From NCBI RefSeq assembly GCF_011388215.1, contig NZ_CP049989.1, positions 3,038,001 through 3,102,000 on the forward strand: 64,000 nucleotides of DNA, written 5' to 3'. Under the pieces are notes generated by a model, which was not told the DNA's origin, ran no database searches, and saw nothing but the letters and a program-made list of their open reading frames with translations. This document shows positions 36,788 through 45,077 of the stretch, piece by piece. A program made the position numbers and the translations under genes. Numbering within the stretch: the first letter of the stretch is position 1; each line of letters starts with the position of its first letter. The stretch is from Hydrogenophaga crocea (GTDB lineage Bacteria; Pseudomonadota; Gammaproteobacteria; Burkholderiales; Burkholderiaceae_C).

Positions 36788-37528
36788 TCAGTTCAGGTAG
36801 GGAAACGCTTCATCAACACCGGCGCGCTCGGCCTCTTCATTCCAGATGCGCTTGGCCACTTCATGCGGCATCTGGTGGGTGTAGAAGAACGGGTCCACCT
36901 CGGTGAAGTAGTCGAACGCCTCTCGTTCCCTGTTCGCTTTCTGCGCCGCGAACATGGCGCGCAGCATGTGACGCACATGGAATTCGTCGCCCCCGTCGCC
37001 GCCGCCACCACCGACCAGGTTGCCTTGCCAGATGCGCTTGTAGATCACGGCGCTCTTTGACACGTCGTCCCAGTAGATCGTGAAGGAACTCCCGTCGTAT
37101 TCACTGGTATCCATACCAACTTTAAATGGCTCAAAACCATGTTCAGTCCTGAGGTAGATGCCACGTGGAAACTTGAGCAAGACAGGCATGCGATGGGGAT
37201 TTTTGAACATCTCCTTGTGAGCCGACGTGATGACATCGCACCATCCGTCGCCATCGATATCGACCCATGTCACATCCACCGCATCGTCCTTTCGCCACTG
37301 TGCGGTCAGTCTTGTGATTGTCGATTCTGTATCTCCCTTTTGTCTTAGCCGATTCCAAGGCGAGAAGGTTTGCCACCCGAGCATGTCTCGCTTGCACGCC
37401 GGCATGTCGATCGTCCAATCCACCGAAGGAGTGGATGGACTGCTGACAGATTCACTGGATGCCTTGGCTGCATAACCGCCGAATGCTGCCAATGCGCATA
37501 CGAAAGCCAACGCCTGCGTTCGCCTCAT
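36788..37528 (-). CDS. Exported immunity-like protein, paralogue 2
   Basis: The 246-residue product begins with a Sec signal (MRRTQALAFVCALAAFGGYA) and is an evident paralogue, well over half identical by eye, of the product at 39239-39979. Shared features include CKRDM, FSPWNRLR, a calcium-loop-like VDIDGDGWCD, SEYDGSSF, GDEFHVR and EEAERAGV. No family name is recognised. Each paralogue directly follows an RHS C-terminal module, so I infer a periplasmic immunity protein for the displaced toxin at 37542-39092. An AAGGAG site precedes the ATG. Base composition is lower in GC than its neighbours. Confidence 0.7.
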   Translation of the reverse strand: MRRTQALAFVCALAAFGGYAAKASSESVSSPSTPSVDWTIDMPACKRDMLGWQTFSPWNRLRQKGDTESTITRLTAQWRKDDAVDVTWVDIDGDGWCDVITSAHKEMFKNPHRMPVLLKFPRGIYLRTEHGFEPFKVGMDTSEYDGSSFTIYWDDVSKSAVIYKRIWQGNLVGGGGGDGGDEFHVRHMLRAMFAAQKANREREAFDYFTEVDPFFYTHQMPHEVAKRIWNEEAERAGVDEAFPYLN

Positions 37529-37541
37529 TTCCACTCTCCTT

Positions 37542-39092
37542 CTACTTGAAGGCTCTCTTGGTTGGATCCAGTGCCATTCGCGGTACATCCAGGCGTACGC
37601 AGGGCACCTTGTCGAAGTCTTTCCAGATCGCTATCAGTCCCTGGGAATACGCAAAGCCTCGTGCGATTGAAAGATCGCTCACGTCAGAACCGGCGTTGTG
37701 AAAATAGCCTAAACGCGTCGCGATGTCCTGCTCCGACTCGTTGGGGAACTGGCTGCGGTACTGCGCGTACTTCCAGCGAATCTCACGGTCCGAAATCAGG
37801 CCGAACTTCTCGCGGCTCTTGAACAAGGCGTCGGTACTCTTCAATAAGGCAGCCTCGACAACAGGATCAATGAACACAGCCGCCGTGGCAAAGCCCTGCC
37901 AGCCTTCGTTCCAGATCCGCTGACGCAGGTAAGGGCGGAAGCCGCGCCGGTTCATTCCCAGGTCGAGCAACAAGCTGTCAAACCTTTGCTCCACCGTCGG
38001 ATTCACGCCCTCTTGCGTTTGCGCCAGCGACCTCTGATGCAGCAGGGAATAGGCGGCATTGGGGTCACCACCACCATCCACCAGAAACCGCTCCATCAGT
38101 TCCCCCATCTGCGCCCACTTCACCATCTTCACGTACATCGTGTACGCCTCGCTGCTTGTGCTGTCGGGTGAGTGGCTGAAACCCGTCTCGGTCGCGAAAA
38201 GTTGGAGTTGAATTGGATCTGGCGGTGAGATGGGTGTACTTGCATTCAGTCGAACCCTCCAGCCACGCACGAGCTTTCCGGCGTAGATGCCTCCGACCAC
38301 ATTGACCGCCCGCCATGCGGCCCGGTCGAGCCTCTGCCGCAACTCGCTGTCCCTCCCCTGCGCATCCACAAACCCCAATTGCCGCCGCTCCTCGTCCGTC
38401 ATGCTTGCCTGGCTGTCGAACAACACGCGGAACGCAAGGTTCTTGTTGGTGCTCGGCTTGCGCATGTCCGAAAACGTCAGCAAGCGATCCACAAACGTAG
38501 ACACCACAAATTGCGTCGGCCCGTAGCTCGCGGGCGTGCCCGCGGGGTTCTGCGTGCCCGCGGGGCAGCCGGTCTGCGAGCAGTCCGCGCCGCCCGATTC
38601 CTTGAGCTCCACCGCGCGCTTGAGCCGCTGGAAGGCGCGCTCGGGCGTCATGCCCTGCTGGCAGCTCAGGCTGTCCTGGCCCTGGTCCACGCGCTGGCCG
38701 CCGGGGGCATCGTTCTGGCCGGCAACGCCGCCGGGCGACAAGGCGAGGCCGCGCAGTTGCACGGGCGGCAGCACCAGCCGGTCGCTGCCCGGGCAGGCGC
38801 CACCCAGGTACTTGTGCACCACATCCCCCTGCGTCTGCAGTTCGTCGAGCAGTTGCAGCGCGGCGGCGTCCTCGATGTCGAGCGTGAAGCTGTCGGGCGA
38901 GATCAGGTCGTTGACGTAGTACGCAACGAAGGCCAGGGCCGGGTCCACGTTGCCCGGTGCCGACGGTGTCCAGCGCGCGTAGGTGTCGCTCACGAAGGCC
39001 GTGTCCGATCCCGCGAGCGGGTTCGACGCCGACCCCAGGAAGCCGCCGCCGCGGTCGTACAGCACCTGCGTCTGCGCCTCCGTGAACGGCAT
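37542..39092 (-). CDS. Displaced RHS C-terminal toxin module (orphan tip)
   Basis: From the ATG at 39092 this is a 516-residue open frame. Residues about 6-434 match residues about 1184-1612 of the full RHS protein apparently without difference, while the last 82 or so differ (RWKYAQYRSQFPNESEQDIA against RWKYAAYRIQHPDESESDIV). Upstream of the ATG a relic of the RHS core remains in another frame. The module has no signal peptide or RHS cage of its own, so it is either a silent recombination reservoir or a degraded gene copy. The open frame has been kept throughout, which argues against long neutral decay. Confidence 0.7.
   Translation of the reverse strand: MPFTEAQTQVLYDRGGGFLGSASNPLAGSDTAFVSDTYARWTPSAPGNVDPALAFVAYYVNDLISPDSFTLDIEDAAALQLLDELQTQGDVVHKYLGGACPGSDRLVLPPVQLRGLALSPGGVAGQNDAPGGQRVDQGQDSLSCQQGMTPERAFQRLKRAVELKESGGADCSQTGCPAGTQNPAGTPASYGPTQFVVSTFVDRLLTFSDMRKPSTNKNLAFRVLFDSQASMTDEERRQLGFVDAQGRDSELRQRLDRAAWRAVNVVGGIYAGKLVRGWRVRLNASTPISPPDPIQLQLFATETGFSHSPDSTSSEAYTMYVKMVKWAQMGELMERFLVDGGGDPNAAYSLLHQRSLAQTQEGVNPTVEQRFDSLLLDLGMNRRGFRPYLRQRIWNEGWQGFATAAVFIDPVVEAALLKSTDALFKSREKFGLISDREIRWKYAQYRSQFPNESEQDIATRLGYFHNAGSDVSDLSIARGFAYSQGLIAIWKDFDKVPCVRLDVPRMALDPTKRAFK
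37789..39077 (-). repeat. 1289-bp direct repeat, orphan copy
   Basis: This segment appears identical to 40240-41528 at a constant offset of 2451 bp. It covers the shared part of the two RHS C-terminal modules. At one end the homology stops inside the toxin tip; at the other it ends at the junction of a 182-bp deletion relative to the full gene. Confidence 0.9.
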
Positions 39093-39200
39093 CGGCGATG
39101 CCCGACGGGTTGGGGCCGATGAAGCGCCCCTCGCGCGCCTCGAAGTACAGCGTGCCGTGCTGGACCAGGCCGCTGTCGTCGTCGTGCATTTGGCCCACGT
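39093..39200 (-). pseudogene. RHS core remnant upstream of the orphan module
   Basis: In a different frame from the orphan toxin this stretch encodes GQMHDDDSGLVQHGTLYFEA and then REGRFIGPNPSGIADAVHGG, matching the RHS core end GQVHDDDSGLEQHGARFFEA and REGRFISPDPSGIADALHG of the full protein. Relative to the full gene (41529-41710) 182 bp are missing at the join, shifting the frame. It shows the orphan module came from a former complete RHS gene. Confidence 0.75.
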
Positions 39201-39238
39201 GGCGACATACGACCCGAGGAAACGAATGACAAGCCCGG

Positions 39239-39979
39239 TCACCGGTCCATATAAGGGAATTCCAGATCGACACCGGCGCGCTCGGCCTCTTCTTTCCAGA
39301 TCTGCTTAACCACCGGGCGAGGGATGCCACTTCGGTGGAAGAAGGGGTCGATTTCCGCAAGATAAGCGTTCTCCACGTCCGTGTTGCCGGCTCTGTGTCC
39401 AGCAAACGCCGCGCGCAACATCTGGCGCACATGGAACTCATCGCCCTCTCCCCCGAGGCCCTGGATAAGGTTCCCCTGATATACGCGGATGACGATCACC
39501 GCGTTCTTTGCGGACTTCTGCCAATAGACGACGAATGAACTGCCGTCGTACTCGCTCGTGATCATGCCTGGCCTGAAGGGCGTGAAACCTTGCGCCGTTC
39601 GCAGGTAGATACCACGCGGTGCGTACAGCAGCATGGGCTTGACAGACGCCTTGAAGATTTCCTTCTGGCCCGAAGTGATGGCGTCGCACCAGCCATCTCC
39701 GTCGATATCGACCCAGGTCACGTCCACCGCATCTTCTTTGCGCCAGTGCGCGGACAACCTTGCGATCGTTGCGTCTGAGTCTCCCTCGTGGCGCAGGCGA
39801 TTCCATGGCGAGAACGCGCGCCACATGACCATGTCTCGCTTGCAAACAGGCAGATCGATCGTCAAGTCGTTCGCGATGAACCCCGAACCGCTCTGTGGGT
39901 CATCGGCCGACCCGGCCCATGCTGGCCCGAGCGGCATCGTCAGGGCTACGGCCAAAGCCCATGCGCGAATACGTTTCAT
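39239..39979 (-). CDS. Exported immunity-like protein, paralogue 1
   Basis: The 246-residue product begins with a Sec signal (MKRIRAWALAVALTMPLGPA, cleavage after AWA) and follows the RHS gene by 13 nt on the same strand. Motifs shared with the paralogue at 36788-37528 are CKRDM, FSPWNRLR, VDIDGDGWCD (an EF-hand or FG-GAP-like calcium loop), SEYDGSSF and GDEFHVR. No database family is recognised. Position and pairing suggest it neutralises the RHS C-terminal toxin in the periplasm (inference). The gene is less GC-rich than the housekeeping genes around it. Confidence 0.72.
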   Translation of the reverse strand: MKRIRAWALAVALTMPLGPAWAGSADDPQSGSGFIANDLTIDLPVCKRDMVMWRAFSPWNRLRHEGDSDATIARLSAHWRKEDAVDVTWVDIDGDGWCDAITSGQKEIFKASVKPMLLYAPRGIYLRTAQGFTPFRPGMITSEYDGSSFVVYWQKSAKNAVIVIRVYQGNLIQGLGGEGDEFHVRQMLRAAFAGHRAGNTDVENAYLAEIDPFFHRSGIPRPVVKQIWKEEAERAGVDLEFPYMDR

Positions 39980-39992
39980 TGGACTTCTCCGA

Positions 39993-42900
39993 CTACTTAC
40001 CGGATTTCCGGCCCGGGTCTAGCGACAGTCGCGAAACCTCCATATGGGCGCAAGGAACTTGTGTTGTATCGCTCCAAATCGACATCAGGCCTTTGGAATA
40101 GCCGAAGCTGCGTGCGGCGACGAGATCGCGAACGTCGGACCCCGCGTTGTGGAAGTAACCCACGCGCGCGACGATGTCCGACTCAGATTCGTCAGGGTGT
40201 TGGATGCGATAGGCCGCGTACTTCCATCGAAGCTCCCGATCCGAAATCAGGCCGAACTTCTCGCGGCTCTTGAACAAGGCGTCGGTACTCTTCAATAAGG
40301 CAGCCTCGACAACAGGATCAATGAACACAGCCGCCGTGGCAAAGCCCTGCCAGCCTTCGTTCCAGATCCGCTGACGCAGGTAAGGGCGGAAGCCGCGCCG
40401 GTTCATTCCCAGGTCGAGCAACAAGCTGTCAAACCTTTGCTCCACCGTCGGATTCACGCCCTCTTGCGTTTGCGCCAGCGACCTCTGATGCAGCAGGGAA
40501 TAGGCGGCATTGGGGTCACCACCACCATCCACCAGAAACCGCTCCATCAGTTCCCCCATCTGCGCCCACTTCACCATCTTCACGTACATCGTGTACGCCT
40601 CGCTGCTTGTGCTGTCGGGTGAGTGGCTGAAACCCGTCTCGGTCGCGAAAAGTTGGAGTTGAATTGGATCTGGCGGTGAGATGGGTGTACTTGCATTCAG
40701 TCGAACCCTCCAGCCACGCACGAGCTTTCCGGCGTAGATGCCTCCGACCACATTGACCGCCCGCCATGCGGCCCGGTCGAGCCTCTGCCGCAACTCGCTG
40801 TCCCTCCCCTGCGCATCCACAAACCCCAATTGCCGCCGCTCCTCGTCCGTCATGCTTGCCTGGCTGTCGAACAACACGCGGAACGCAAGGTTCTTGTTGG
40901 TGCTCGGCTTGCGCATGTCCGAAAACGTCAGCAAGCGATCCACAAACGTAGACACCACAAATTGCGTCGGCCCGTAGCTCGCGGGCGTGCCCGCGGGGTT
41001 CTGCGTGCCCGCGGGGCAGCCGGTCTGCGAGCAGTCCGCGCCGCCCGATTCCTTGAGCTCCACCGCGCGCTTGAGCCGCTGGAAGGCGCGCTCGGGCGTC
41101 ATGCCCTGCTGGCAGCTCAGGCTGTCCTGGCCCTGGTCCACGCGCTGGCCGCCGGGGGCATCGTTCTGGCCGGCAACGCCGCCGGGCGACAAGGCGAGGC
41201 CGCGCAGTTGCACGGGCGGCAGCACCAGCCGGTCGCTGCCCGGGCAGGCGCCACCCAGGTACTTGTGCACCACATCCCCCTGCGTCTGCAGTTCGTCGAG
41301 CAGTTGCAGCGCGGCGGCGTCCTCGATGTCGAGCGTGAAGCTGTCGGGCGAGATCAGGTCGTTGACGTAGTACGCAACGAAGGCCAGGGCCGGGTCCACG
41401 TTGCCCGGTGCCGACGGTGTCCAGCGCGCGTAGGTGTCGCTCACGAAGGCCGTGTCCGATCCCGCGAGCGGGTTCGACGCCGACCCCAGGAAGCCGCCGC
41501 CGCGGTCGTACAGCACCTGCGTCTGCGCGTTCGCGCCCGGCAGGTCGCGCAGCCAGAAGGCCCAGCGCCCGGTCACGGTGCTCGCGGCCACGGCCTCGGG
41601 CTCGGTGTCGATCAGGTAGTAGGTGAGGCGGGCCGCGCCATCGGGGTCGAAATAGGCCTCGGGCTGGCCGCCCGCGTAGGCGTACAGATCGAGCAGTTGC
41701 GGCGGCCGCACGCCGTGGAGGGCATCGGCGATGCCCGACGGGTCGGGGCTGATGAAGCGCCCTTCGCGCGCCTCGAAAAAGCGCGCGCCGTGCTGCTCCA
41801 GGCCGCTGTCGTCGTCGTGCACCTGGCCCACGTCGCGCAGCGGCTGGTGCAGGCCCGAAGGCGCTTCGTCGCGCCACACGGTCTGCCCGGCCTCGGTGGC
41901 GCGCTGCACGCGGCCCACGCCATCGGTGTGCAGGTGCCGCACGCGCGGCCCAAAGACCAGGGCCTGCAAGGCCTGCCAGCCGCGCTCGGGGTTCATCACG
42001 ATCTGCGCCACCGGCCGGTGGCCCAGGTGCACATAGGCGTGGGTCACGCGGCCGCGCGCATCGGCCTCGGCAGCGAGGCGGCTGCCGTCGTAGACGCTCA
42101 CGGCGGCGTGCGTGTGGCCGCGGGCGTCGGTCACCAGCTTGAGCACGCGGCGGCCGCGCGGGTCGTACAGGTAGCGGCTGTGGCCGCCGTCGTCGCGTGC
42201 GCTGTGCGCCAGTTGCCCGGCCGCGTTCCAGCGCAGCCGCTGCAGGCCCTGTTCGCTCAGCACGGTCGCGGGCAGACCGGCGGCGTCGTGGTGCAGGCCG
42301 GGGGGCGGCAGGGGCGGTGACGGGTCCGCAGGCCCATAGGCAAGCGCCTCGCCGGCCGTGCGGCCGGGCCCGCGCGGCGCACGCGGCACCACAGGGTCGT
42401 AGCGGTCCACCGTGCCGTCCCCGTGGTGGAGCGCGAGGGCGCGCCGCCAGGGCATGCCGTCGGGCGCCTGCCATTCGATGCGGGCCAGGATCTCGCGCTC
42501 GCCGCCGAGCCCGCCGGGCAGCATGCCCTGGACCGCGAGGCGCACCGGCCGACCACTCGCGTCGAGGGCCTGGGTCAGCGCCAGCGCCTGGCCCGTGGCG
42601 TCGGTGAGCACGCGGCCCAGCGCGCGGCCGGCCGGGTCGCGCCGGTGCGCGAGCGTGAACACCAGCGGCTGGGCCAGCACCGCCTGGAGCGCACCCGCCG
42701 GCTCGATGCGCAGCGTCTCGCTCGCCAGCGCGCCGCTCGCCGCGTGCGTGTAGCGAAGCCGGCGCGTGCCGTCGGCGTCGCTCACGCTTTCTTCGGTGAG
42801 CCGCCCCTGCGCGTGGCGGCGCTCCACTACCTGCTCGGGCTCGGTGGCGCCCGGCGCGAAGCGTTCGATGCGGACCAGCCGGCCCGCCAGGTCCCAGGCC

Positions 42901-45077
42901 AGGCGCTGGCGCGCGCCGCGCGGGTCGGTGGTGTGCACGACGCGCCCGGCCGCATCGTGCTGCGCGAACCGCCAGCCCTGGCCAGGGTTGCGAATGGCCA
43001 CCACGCGGCCGAAGTCGTCGATCAGGCGGCGGGCCTGGGCGTGGGCATGACCGATCTCCAGGGCCTGTTGTTCGGCGGCGCTGCCGAGCGGCCCCCAGGC
43101 GGCCTGCAGCAAGAGCGCGCCATCGGCGCTGCGCCAGGCCACGGGACGGCCGAGTTCGTCGCGCTCGGGGTTCGGCCGGTCATCGGCCGCGAGGGGCTCG
43201 GGCCGCGCCGCGGGTGCCTGGACGGGCGGCAGTGGCTCGCGCACACGGCCGGTGTCGGCCTCCTGCCCCACCCGCACCCCCTCACCCCCCGGCCCTGTGA
43301 TCTGCACCACCCGATCGCCGCGCGCGTCCCAGCCGTAGCGCGTGATGTCCGAGTCGGCCGGGCTGTTCAGCGGCCCGTTGGGCAAGGGCCCGTCCTGTTG
43401 CACCCGCACGCTGCGCCCGTTGATCGTCGCGTAGCCGTATCCGGTGCTGCGTTCGATCGCCACGCCGTTGGGCACGACGCGGCCTTGCCCGTCCACCGGG
43501 CTGTACCCGCTCTCGTCCACCCGCAGCAGCTGCCGCGCCGCGTTGTAGGCCAAACGCAGCGTGTGCACCCGCCCCGCCACCACGCTCGGGCGCTCGATGC
43601 GCAGCGGCTGCGGCTCGGGCAGCGCGTCGGGGTCGGTCGTGTCGAGCGGCGCGTAGGCGTAGCGCACGCGCCATTGCGCGGGCAGGGGCCGGCCGCGGCG
43701 GTAGCGCACGAGGCTGCGCTGCGTGACGCGGCCCTGCGCGTCGCGCTCGCTGCGCTGGGTGAGCACGGGCCGGCCTCGCGCGTCGAGCCGGGTTTCTTCG
43801 ACGAGCCGGCCCAGGCGGTCATAGGCGTAGCGCACGTTGGCCGGCCCGCAGGCGGCGCAGCCCGCGCCGCGCACCTGCAGGATGCGCGGCTGGCCCGCCA
43901 CGAGGGCCGTGGTGTAGTCGGTGGTCTGGCCCAGGCTGTTGGTGAGCCGGGTGTGGCCCTGGCCGGCGCGGCCGCCGTGCGCGGGCAGCCATTGCAGCTG
44001 CACCTGTTCGAGGCCGGGCGCACCGGCGCGGCGCTCACCCTTGAAGCTGAGCACGGCGCGGCCCTGTGCGTCGTAGGCCCAGGTGCTCAGGCGCTGCGAG
44101 GGCGGCTCGCCCTGCTGTTCGCTGATGCCGGTGAGCAGCACGGGCCAGCGCGGGTCTTCGTGGTGGTAGTGGCGCACGCGCGCGGGCAGGCCCGCGGCGG
44201 CGGGGGCGGTGACGCGCACCAGGCTGGCGATGCTTTCGCGCGGGTCGGCGCGCGAGCCCGCGGGCAGCGCGGCGCCGTGCGCGTAGCCGAAACGGCCCAC
44301 GGGGGTGTCGATGGCGTACACGCCGCGGAAGCCCCCTTCGCTGGGGTCTTCGCGGTGTTCGCCGCGGCGGCCCGGGTAGTGCAGCACCAGCCGCCGCCCC
44401 GCGGGGTCGATGACCTCGCGCAGCCAGCCGCGTTCGTCGTGGCGCAGGCTCAGGAATTCGCCGCTGGGCACGCGGATCTGTTCGAGCCGGCCCTGGCGGT
44501 TGAAGCGCAGTTCGCGGCCGTCGGCCCAGGTCCAGACGTGTTGGGTGCCGCCGGCCACGGCCTGCGCGCGCACCCGGCCTTGCAGGGGCTCGCGGGTGCG
44601 GTAGGTGTCGGGGCGCTGGGGCACGCGCTCGAAGCGCAGCCGCGTGCCGTCGCCCTGCACGATCTGCAGGCCGTCGCCGCGCACGCTGAGTTCGCTCTCG
44701 TAGCTCAGCCGCCAGCCGCGCCCGAGCACGCCTTTGCCGTGTTCGGCGCTGTTGTAGTGGCGCACGAGTTCGAGCCCGAGCACGCCGGGCAGCGCGGCCA
44801 TATCGACCTCGCGCTGGTGCTTGTTGCCGCCGATGACGTGGATGGGGTTGCCCACGCCCTGGTCGGTGCCCGAGGCATTGCCCAGCGTGGCCACGCCCGC
44901 GCCGCCGCAGGGGCTGCCCAGACCCGCGCCGTCGCCGCCGGCGCAGCACATCTGGGTGGGGTCGCAGGCGGTCGCTGCGGCCCCGGCGGGCGCGGCCACG
45001 GCCCATGCCACCGCGAGGGCCAGGAGAAAACCGCCACAACGCGAGCGCAAGCCCGCGCGGCGCAGGCGCTGGTCCAT
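39993..45077 (-). CDS. Sec-exported RHS/YD-repeat polymorphic toxin
   Basis: The 1694-residue protein has a Sec signal (LLALAVAWAVAAPAGAAA, residues about 18-35), a cysteine/glycine-rich patch, a DUF6531-like domain (GNPIHVIGGNKHQREVDMAA, near 76-95), about 1000 residues of YD repeats forming the expected shell, and an RHS core end (REGRFISPDPSGIADALHG, then YAYAGGQPEAYFDPDG). The C-terminal module from about 1165 has a lysozyme/transglycosylase-like pattern (Glu1343 in KESGG, then YGPTQF at 1368-1373). No PAAR or VgrG partner is present, so type VI delivery is unsupported; the route beyond the periplasm is unknown. GGGAG precedes the ATG. Confidence 0.85.
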   Translation of the reverse strand: MDQRLRRAGLRSRCGGFLLALAVAWAVAAPAGAAATACDPTQMCCAGGDGAGLGSPCGGAGVATLGNASGTDQGVGNPIHVIGGNKHQREVDMAALPGVLGLELVRHYNSAEHGKGVLGRGWRLSYESELSVRGDGLQIVQGDGTRLRFERVPQRPDTYRTREPLQGRVRAQAVAGGTQHVWTWADGRELRFNRQGRLEQIRVPSGEFLSLRHDERGWLREVIDPAGRRLVLHYPGRRGEHREDPSEGGFRGVYAIDTPVGRFGYAHGAALPAGSRADPRESIASLVRVTAPAAAGLPARVRHYHHEDPRWPVLLTGISEQQGEPPSQRLSTWAYDAQGRAVLSFKGERRAGAPGLEQVQLQWLPAHGGRAGQGHTRLTNSLGQTTDYTTALVAGQPRILQVRGAGCAACGPANVRYAYDRLGRLVEETRLDARGRPVLTQRSERDAQGRVTQRSLVRYRRGRPLPAQWRVRYAYAPLDTTDPDALPEPQPLRIERPSVVAGRVHTLRLAYNAARQLLRVDESGYSPVDGQGRVVPNGVAIERSTGYGYATINGRSVRVQQDGPLPNGPLNSPADSDITRYGWDARGDRVVQITGPGGEGVRVGQEADTGRVREPLPPVQAPAARPEPLAADDRPNPERDELGRPVAWRSADGALLLQAAWGPLGSAAEQQALEIGHAHAQARRLIDDFGRVVAIRNPGQGWRFAQHDAAGRVVHTTDPRGARQRLAWDLAGRLVRIERFAPGATEPEQVVERRHAQGRLTEESVSDADGTRRLRYTHAASGALASETLRIEPAGALQAVLAQPLVFTLAHRRDPAGRALGRVLTDATGQALALTQALDASGRPVRLAVQGMLPGGLGGEREILARIEWQAPDGMPWRRALALHHGDGTVDRYDPVVPRAPRGPGRTAGEALAYGPADPSPPLPPPGLHHDAAGLPATVLSEQGLQRLRWNAAGQLAHSARDDGGHSRYLYDPRGRRVLKLVTDARGHTHAAVSVYDGSRLAAEADARGRVTHAYVHLGHRPVAQIVMNPERGWQALQALVFGPRVRHLHTDGVGRVQRATEAGQTVWRDEAPSGLHQPLRDVGQVHDDDSGLEQHGARFFEAREGRFISPDPSGIADALHGVRPPQLLDLYAYAGGQPEAYFDPDGAARLTYYLIDTEPEAVAASTVTGRWAFWLRDLPGANAQTQVLYDRGGGFLGSASNPLAGSDTAFVSDTYARWTPSAPGNVDPALAFVAYYVNDLISPDSFTLDIEDAAALQLLDELQTQGDVVHKYLGGACPGSDRLVLPPVQLRGLALSPGGVAGQNDAPGGQRVDQGQDSLSCQQGMTPERAFQRLKRAVELKESGGADCSQTGCPAGTQNPAGTPASYGPTQFVVSTFVDRLLTFSDMRKPSTNKNLAFRVLFDSQASMTDEERRQLGFVDAQGRDSELRQRLDRAAWRAVNVVGGIYAGKLVRGWRVRLNASTPISPPDPIQLQLFATETGFSHSPDSTSSEAYTMYVKMVKWAQMGELMERFLVDGGGDPNAAYSLLHQRSLAQTQEGVNPTVEQRFDSLLLDLGMNRRGFRPYLRQRIWNEGWQGFATAAVFIDPVVEAALLKSTDALFKSREKFGLISDRELRWKYAAYRIQHPDESESDIVARVGYFHNAGSDVRDLVAARSFGYSKGLMSIWSDTTQVPCAHMEVSRLSLDPGRKSGK
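40240..41528 (-). repeat. 1289-bp direct repeat, copy within the full RHS gene
   Basis: Same sequence as 37789-39077. It encodes RHS residues about 1184-1612. The C-terminal 82 codons beyond it are diverged between the copies. Confidence 0.9.

Follow-up and report, generated by a model that had tools for sequence, protein, structure and literature searches.

A putative chimeric orphan RHS module and paired exported proteins at a predicted polymorphic-toxin locus of Hydrogenophaga crocea

Main finding and layout of the locus

A stretch of 64,000 nucleotides from Hydrogenophaga crocea (contig NZ_CP049989.1, positions 3,038,001 to 3,102,000 of the forward strand; hereafter the window) carries at 36788-45077 a full-length RHS gene and an orphan RHS C-terminal module, each followed by a gene for an exported protein. 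This is probably a polymorphic-toxin locus, comprising a Sec-exported RHS protein with an envelope-acting module, a periplasmic immunity protein and, behind them, an orphan module-plus-immunity cassette. To judge by sequence, the orphan is a chimera that joins the body of the main gene to a tip of the type carried by Hydrogenophaga sp. T2. The initial annotation had placed four genes here in the minus-strand order RHS gene, exported protein 1, orphan RHS C-terminus, exported protein 2, and all four frames are present on that strand in that order:

39993-45077, minus strand: full-length RHS gene, 1694 aa
39239-39979, minus strand: exported protein 1, candidate immunity to the main tip, 246 aa; GGAG precedes the ATG
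37542-39092, minus strand: orphan RHS C-terminal module, 516 aa from the ATG or 566 aa from the GTG at 39242
36788-37528, minus strand: exported protein 2, candidate immunity to the orphan tip, 246 aa; AAGGAG precedes the ATG and the reading frame is open from 37588

From N- to C-terminus, the full-length RHS protein consists of a Sec-type signal peptide, DUF6531, RHS repeats, an RHS-associated core and a C-terminal module of ~540 aa. PF05593, PF20148 and TIGR03696 score above their curated cut-offs in it, covering the RHS repeats and the RHS-associated core. Signal peptides were called by eye. The orphan was described earlier as a tip/immunity cassette of the kind used for tip exchange, and it has the corresponding parts: a displaced C-terminus, a core remnant, its own partner gene, sequence shared with the main gene and no delivery part. 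The pairing of the exported genes also holds, each of them following its RHS module at the locus.

Exact repeat and block comparison

Alignment of 37789-39077 with 40240-41528 bears out the reported identity of the two modules, being exact over 1289 bp (zero mismatches), although short-read polishing could mask a few differences in a 1.3-kb repeat. A match of this length is far beyond chance. For comparison, the module was split into A (203 aa), B (226 aa) and C (last 82 aa):

40240-41528, minus strand: exact 1289-bp block, main-gene copy
37789-39077, minus strand: exact 1289-bp block, orphan copy
40920-41528, minus strand: block A of the main module, 203 aa
40242-40919, minus strand: block B of the main module, 226 aa
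39993-40241, minus strand: block C, main tip, last 82 codons plus stop, with the nearly invariant N495 and G497
37542-37790, minus strand: block C, orphan tip, last 82 codons plus stop, 80/82 to the RHS tip of Hydrogenophaga sp. T2
39080-39204, minus strand: remnant of the RHS-core end ahead of the orphan, out of frame, 88% to 41713-41837

The main module equals the T2 RHS protein (P0028) at 202/203 residues in A, 143/226 in B and 48/82 in C. The orphan equals the main module at 203/203, 226/226 and 49/82 residues, respectively, and equals P0028 in C at 80/82. Block B contains 83 residues at which main and T2 differ, and the orphan matches main at all 83. At the 34 such residues of block C, it agrees with T2 at 32, with main at one and with neither at one. 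In the maximum-likelihood tree of block B, main and orphan group with P0005 (100/99), and P0028 groups with P0029 (94/99). In the tree of block C, the orphan is joined to P0028 (99/95) with P0029 beside them (82/93), and main is joined to P0005 (98/97). A block C tree constrained to unite orphan and main was rejected by the approximately unbiased (AU) test. It is the identity of the body with main, the siding of the tip with T2 and the agreement of the trees that mark the orphan as a chimera. The crossover falls in the segment LISDRE-RWKYA, which is well conserved in the five modules aligned.

The direction of the exchange is suggested by two further proteins. P0005 combines a main-type B (199/226) with a main-type C (72/82), and P0029 a T2-type B (191/226 to P0028) with an orphan-type C (67/82 to the orphan). 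Given these pairings, it is the orphan and not T2 that looks like the recombinant. The most plausible reading is that an older orphan received sequence from the main gene, because the two are 88% identical in the RHS-core remnant but 100% identical in the toxin body. Around the exact block, identity drops to 84% at 37622-37921 (an interval that spans the block edge) and to 72-77% in parts of the exported genes. Upstream of 39077 the alignment offset changes from 2451 to 2633; 182 bp of the RHS-core end are therefore missing from the orphan, whose core remnant lies in another frame. Identical DNA had been proposed to serve tip exchange. The architecture and the T2 swap described below fit this proposal, but the identity itself would mainly be the mark of a past main-to-orphan transfer.

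Tip and partner in Hydrogenophaga sp. T2

Strains with swapped tips were sought, and Hydrogenophaga sp. T2 proved to be one, bearing the orphan tip on a long RHS protein. P0028 has 1083 aa with RHS repeats, and its record is marked partial. Within its first 545 residues, 523 of 544 aligned positions equal those of the window RHS protein. Exported protein 2 has a 96% identical counterpart in T2, P0006, and P0028 and P0006 are each recorded on a contig of 657122 bases. The presence of the orphan tip on this protein, together with a 96% identical partner, is most simply viewed as a natural tip swap. The two related strains would thus have almost identical RHS parts but different ends, the window strain apparently keeping a T2-type tip and partner in reserve. 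A conserved delivery part with differing C-terminal modules is seen in T2, at a second RHS locus of the same genome and at H. borbori contig ends.

Predicted toxin module

In the ten modules aligned, 22 columns are invariant (10/10), and all of them lie before the last 82 residues, so these residues are presumably not the whole toxin. The invariant set includes E194, the cysteines 129, 173, 200 and 205, ASYG and QF, of which E194, C200, C205, ASYG and QF fall in block A. Nearly invariant are S195 and T222 (block A) and N495 and G497 (tip). The difference over the last 82 codons noted earlier is thus confirmed, but the divergent codons probably form the end of a C-terminal module of ~540 aa and not a toxin on their own. 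A switch of specificity had also been suggested. The tip does differ; both modules nevertheless appear to belong to one toxin family, and a swap would change the toxin allele, not the toxin type. At two loci of the order sample (L059, L060), the RHS gene follows the module profile as far as block A extends and departs from it afterwards, with different exported genes downstream. Such a pattern points to block A as the stable core of what may be a wider toxin family.

The four invariant cysteines fit an oxidising compartment, with which they would be compatible. An envelope target of the predicted toxin is favoured by the Sec-type signal, the conserved cysteines, the exported partners and the phospholipase tip on the sister RHS gene.

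As to chemistry, a lysozyme-superfamily (lytic-transglycosylase-like) peptidoglycan enzyme is a tentative possibility, though not one to be expected on balance; it is compatible with the polymorphic-toxin reading of the locus. E194 would be catalytic, and GxTQ and HNxG would be the other motifs, the last of them in the exchanged tip. E, GxTQ and N-x-G recall the three lytic transglycosylase motifs. These are displayed by the genome's own SLT domains, and in the predicted model of the module they stand at helix ends. Against this, the module has no Pfam or NCBIfam match, hhalign gives a probability of 0.3 with three of the genome's own SLT domains, and no lytic transglycosylase occurs among the fold-search row titles shown. 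The SLT family profile (GH23-type lytic transglycosylase) had no match in the ten modules scanned. The model is of low confidence at residues 94-178 and 195-204, and ~270 residues separate the second motif from the third, far more than in the SLT domains of the genome.

Exported proteins

In Noviherbaspirillum (L009) and H. borbori (L008), the gene immediately after the RHS module is that of the exported protein. At L015, L059 and L060 the related module is followed by another gene, one whose product has a signal-like N-terminus, and at L016 a reading frame starts 183 bases past the related module. This downstream position fits the candidate role in immunity. Homologues of the exported protein are not consistently found away from RHS genes in the loci read as DNA (the two of the window, L008, L009 and the fragments at L015). 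In Noviherbaspirillum aridicola, a further gene with a DFDGDGNCD motif lies downstream of the RHS-partner pair (L009:11693-12409).

The halves of the exported proteins seem to behave as mosaics. Between the mature parts of exported protein 2 and P0008, the N half is equal at 67/105 positions and the C half at 102/105. Exported protein 1 equals P0012 at 88/105 in the N half and 103/105 in the C half, and P0011 at 95/105 and 82/104, respectively. The predicted fold is rich in beta structure in its N part and helical in its C part, and profile and fold comparison indicated a weak resemblance to FG-GAP blades. The families of the tip and of the exported protein had not been recognised from the sequence, and neither had a match in the libraries searched.

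At an H. borbori contig end (L015:2-2829), a related but different tip, 27% identical to the window module, has its own exported gene with a DFNGDGWCD motif, followed by two fragments of an exported gene of the window family. It is as if these fragments were a partner left behind after an exchange.

Expression signals and base composition

Shine-Dalgarno-like sequences precede the RHS gene and both exported genes; none was seen before the orphan ATG. The stop of exported protein 1 overlaps the GTG that opens the orphan frame by 4 nt (GTGA at 39239-39242). This overlap could allow translational coupling of the 566-aa orphan, which would have no signal peptide. G+C content in 2-kb windows is 60-66% over the modules and 73-77% in the adjoining windows. 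Third-position G+C is 0.65 and 0.73 in the exported genes (36788-39979) and ~0.93-0.95 in the genes flanking the island. The low values of the exported genes may be a sign of foreign or frequently exchanged DNA.

Genomic setting and distribution

The window belongs to a single-contig chromosome of 4.56 Mb with an estimated completeness of 99.99%. A tsaC match was obtained in 64 of the 67 genus genomes, and the 30 best matches, one of them the window's own, were taken as loci. Within the 1.5 kb read beyond tsaC, dacB was present at 22 of the 29 other loci and was not found at seven. In the window, the RHS island separates the two genes. As tsaC and dacB lie close together at most of the other loci and are split here, the island is an insertion. 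In G401, taken as H. borbori, dacB adjoins tsaC, and its RHS genes are therefore located elsewhere.

The module was found in 2/67 genus genomes and in 2/399 genomes of the family sample, one of these matches being distant. Its profile matched 3/399 genomes of the order sample. Two database searches returned five proteins each, and one of the first five was the window's own. Relatives of the exported protein were detected in the same two of the 67 genus genomes, in 1/399 genomes of the family sample and at two loci in the species collection; the protein database contained 22 such proteins. Thus, the same two genus genomes have both module and exported gene, and the other 65 have neither.

The gene of the type VI secretion system (T6SS) sheath protein VipB (PF05943), the sole T6SS gene searched, is absent from the genome, the E. 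coli control being positive. No PAAR domain was listed at the RHS N-terminus by Pfam or NCBIfam at E up to 1.

The second RHS gene of the genome (L019:6329-14127; G000:C1:524328-532126; open frame C1:524328-530378) is 97.2% identical to that of the window over 1743 bp of the N-terminal half. Its later part, its tip and the three tandem frames downstream differ from the window locus. The tip is a Tle1-like phospholipase, which also has an envelope target. None of the three tandem frames had a Pfam match, and the first and second share the same final 61 residues. Just upstream of this gene lies a stretch that was judged by eye to be TadE-like.

Proposed mechanism and alternative explanations

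In the mechanism proposed here, main-gene sequence would have overwritten the body of the orphan. Homologous recombination within the 1.3-kb identity could then place the orphan tip at the end of the delivery gene, and the same event would make the second immunity gene its neighbour. Before such recombination the orphan would be silent or nearly so. The gene of exported protein 2, having its own ribosome-binding sequence, may protect against strains such as T2. Recombination would change the immunity protein needed and not the kind of damage, because the modules form one toxin family in which only the last part differs.

The tandem order and an offset near 2451 over most of the unit are what a simple recent tandem duplication of module and exported gene would leave, the tips and exported proteins having since diverged fast under selection and no conversion having taken place. 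This is highly improbable: the orphan tip is much closer to T2 (80/82) than to main (49/82), the exported protein 2 gene is 96% identical to that of T2, and the core remnant of 88% lies beside a body of 100%. Strong evidence against it also comes from block C, in whose tree the orphan joins T2 (99/95) and for which a union of orphan and main fails the AU test. If instead the main gene were the recombinant, a recent crossover would have given the RHS gene the body of the orphan. Identity alone gives no direction, and T2 and the window agree in block A at 202/203; this course of events is nonetheless unlikely, since the pairings in P0005 and P0029, which are two independent rows only, leave the odd combination with the orphan. 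The orphan might also be a dead remnant and the exported proteins ordinary envelope proteins that hitch-hike with the RHS island, as could be supposed from the missing ribosome-binding sequence before the orphan ATG and from the frame shift relative to the core remnant. This too has little to recommend it, because 516 codons run without a stop, the exported genes adjoin RHS modules in the loci read as DNA, the position behind related modules is taken by other exported genes, and neither module nor exported gene occurs in 65 of 67 genus genomes.

Several points weigh against the polymorphic-toxin reading with its orphan cassette. The neighbourhood of P0028 and P0006 in T2 rests on equal contig sizes of 657122 bases and not on DNA, and P0028 is partial. 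The pairing of tip and partner is not clean. The tip of P0030 equals the orphan tip at 44/82 residues, yet the C half of P0009 equals that of exported protein 2 at 96/105; P0030 and P0009 are each recorded on a 17487-base contig and may be neighbours. The orphan itself has a main-type block B beside a T2-type exported partner. In the libraries searched, the toxin module had no family, PDB sequence or fold match, and the exported protein had no family or PDB sequence match, its fold rows being weak. Toxicity, binding and immunity are predicted roles, and the Sec-type export of the RHS protein is likewise a prediction.

A bolder and rather doubtful proposal extends the polymorphic-toxin reading to a family of T6SS-independent, Sec-exported envelope RHS toxins, perhaps divergent and lysozyme-like, whose immunity specificity is set by a C-terminal subdomain open to exchange. 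A crossover within the catalytic module would switch specificity and keep activity, and the periplasmic immunity proteins would form a parallel mosaic.

Relation to known systems and significance

The rhs-main/rhs-CT-orphan locus of Salmonella Typhimurium, as described in PMC3967940, is a close match in architecture and proposed switch. According to the same paper, Salmonella orphan tips occur on full-length proteins of other strains. The Hydrogenophaga locus differs from what is given there in that 1289 bp are 100% identical, the identity reaches deep into the module and only 82 residues differ. Furthermore, both modules here appear to be of one family, the orphan itself can be recognised as a chimera, a Sec-type signal heads the RHS protein, and no T6SS sheath gene is present. 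The mosaic character of the exported-protein family is similar to that of the recombining tandem immunity genes esaG and tipC of the type VII secretion system (PMC9484751), but the present system is Gram-negative and RHS-linked, with signal-like N-termini. The polymorphic toxin survey PMC3482391 lists a Sec/type II secretion route with RHS repeats and describes peptidoglycan-acting toxin domains. The module and exported family of the window differ in that they match no library searched.

What is new here is the unmatched module with its partner family, the evidence of chimerism, an exchange boundary inside the module and a setting without a T6SS sheath gene. The locus offers a candidate toxin/immunity pair that matches no library searched, and RHS export in a genome lacking the sheath gene, by a route of the kind listed in PMC3482391. 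It also offers a sequence-resolved orphan Rhs chimera whose tip is seen on the long RHS protein of a related strain, so that the direction and boundaries of the exchange become visible. In the search with exported protein 2, P0006 was the only protein from T2 among the named rows, which are a minority of all rows. The window strain has a near-copy of the partner gene of T2, which suggests asymmetric competition between the two strains.

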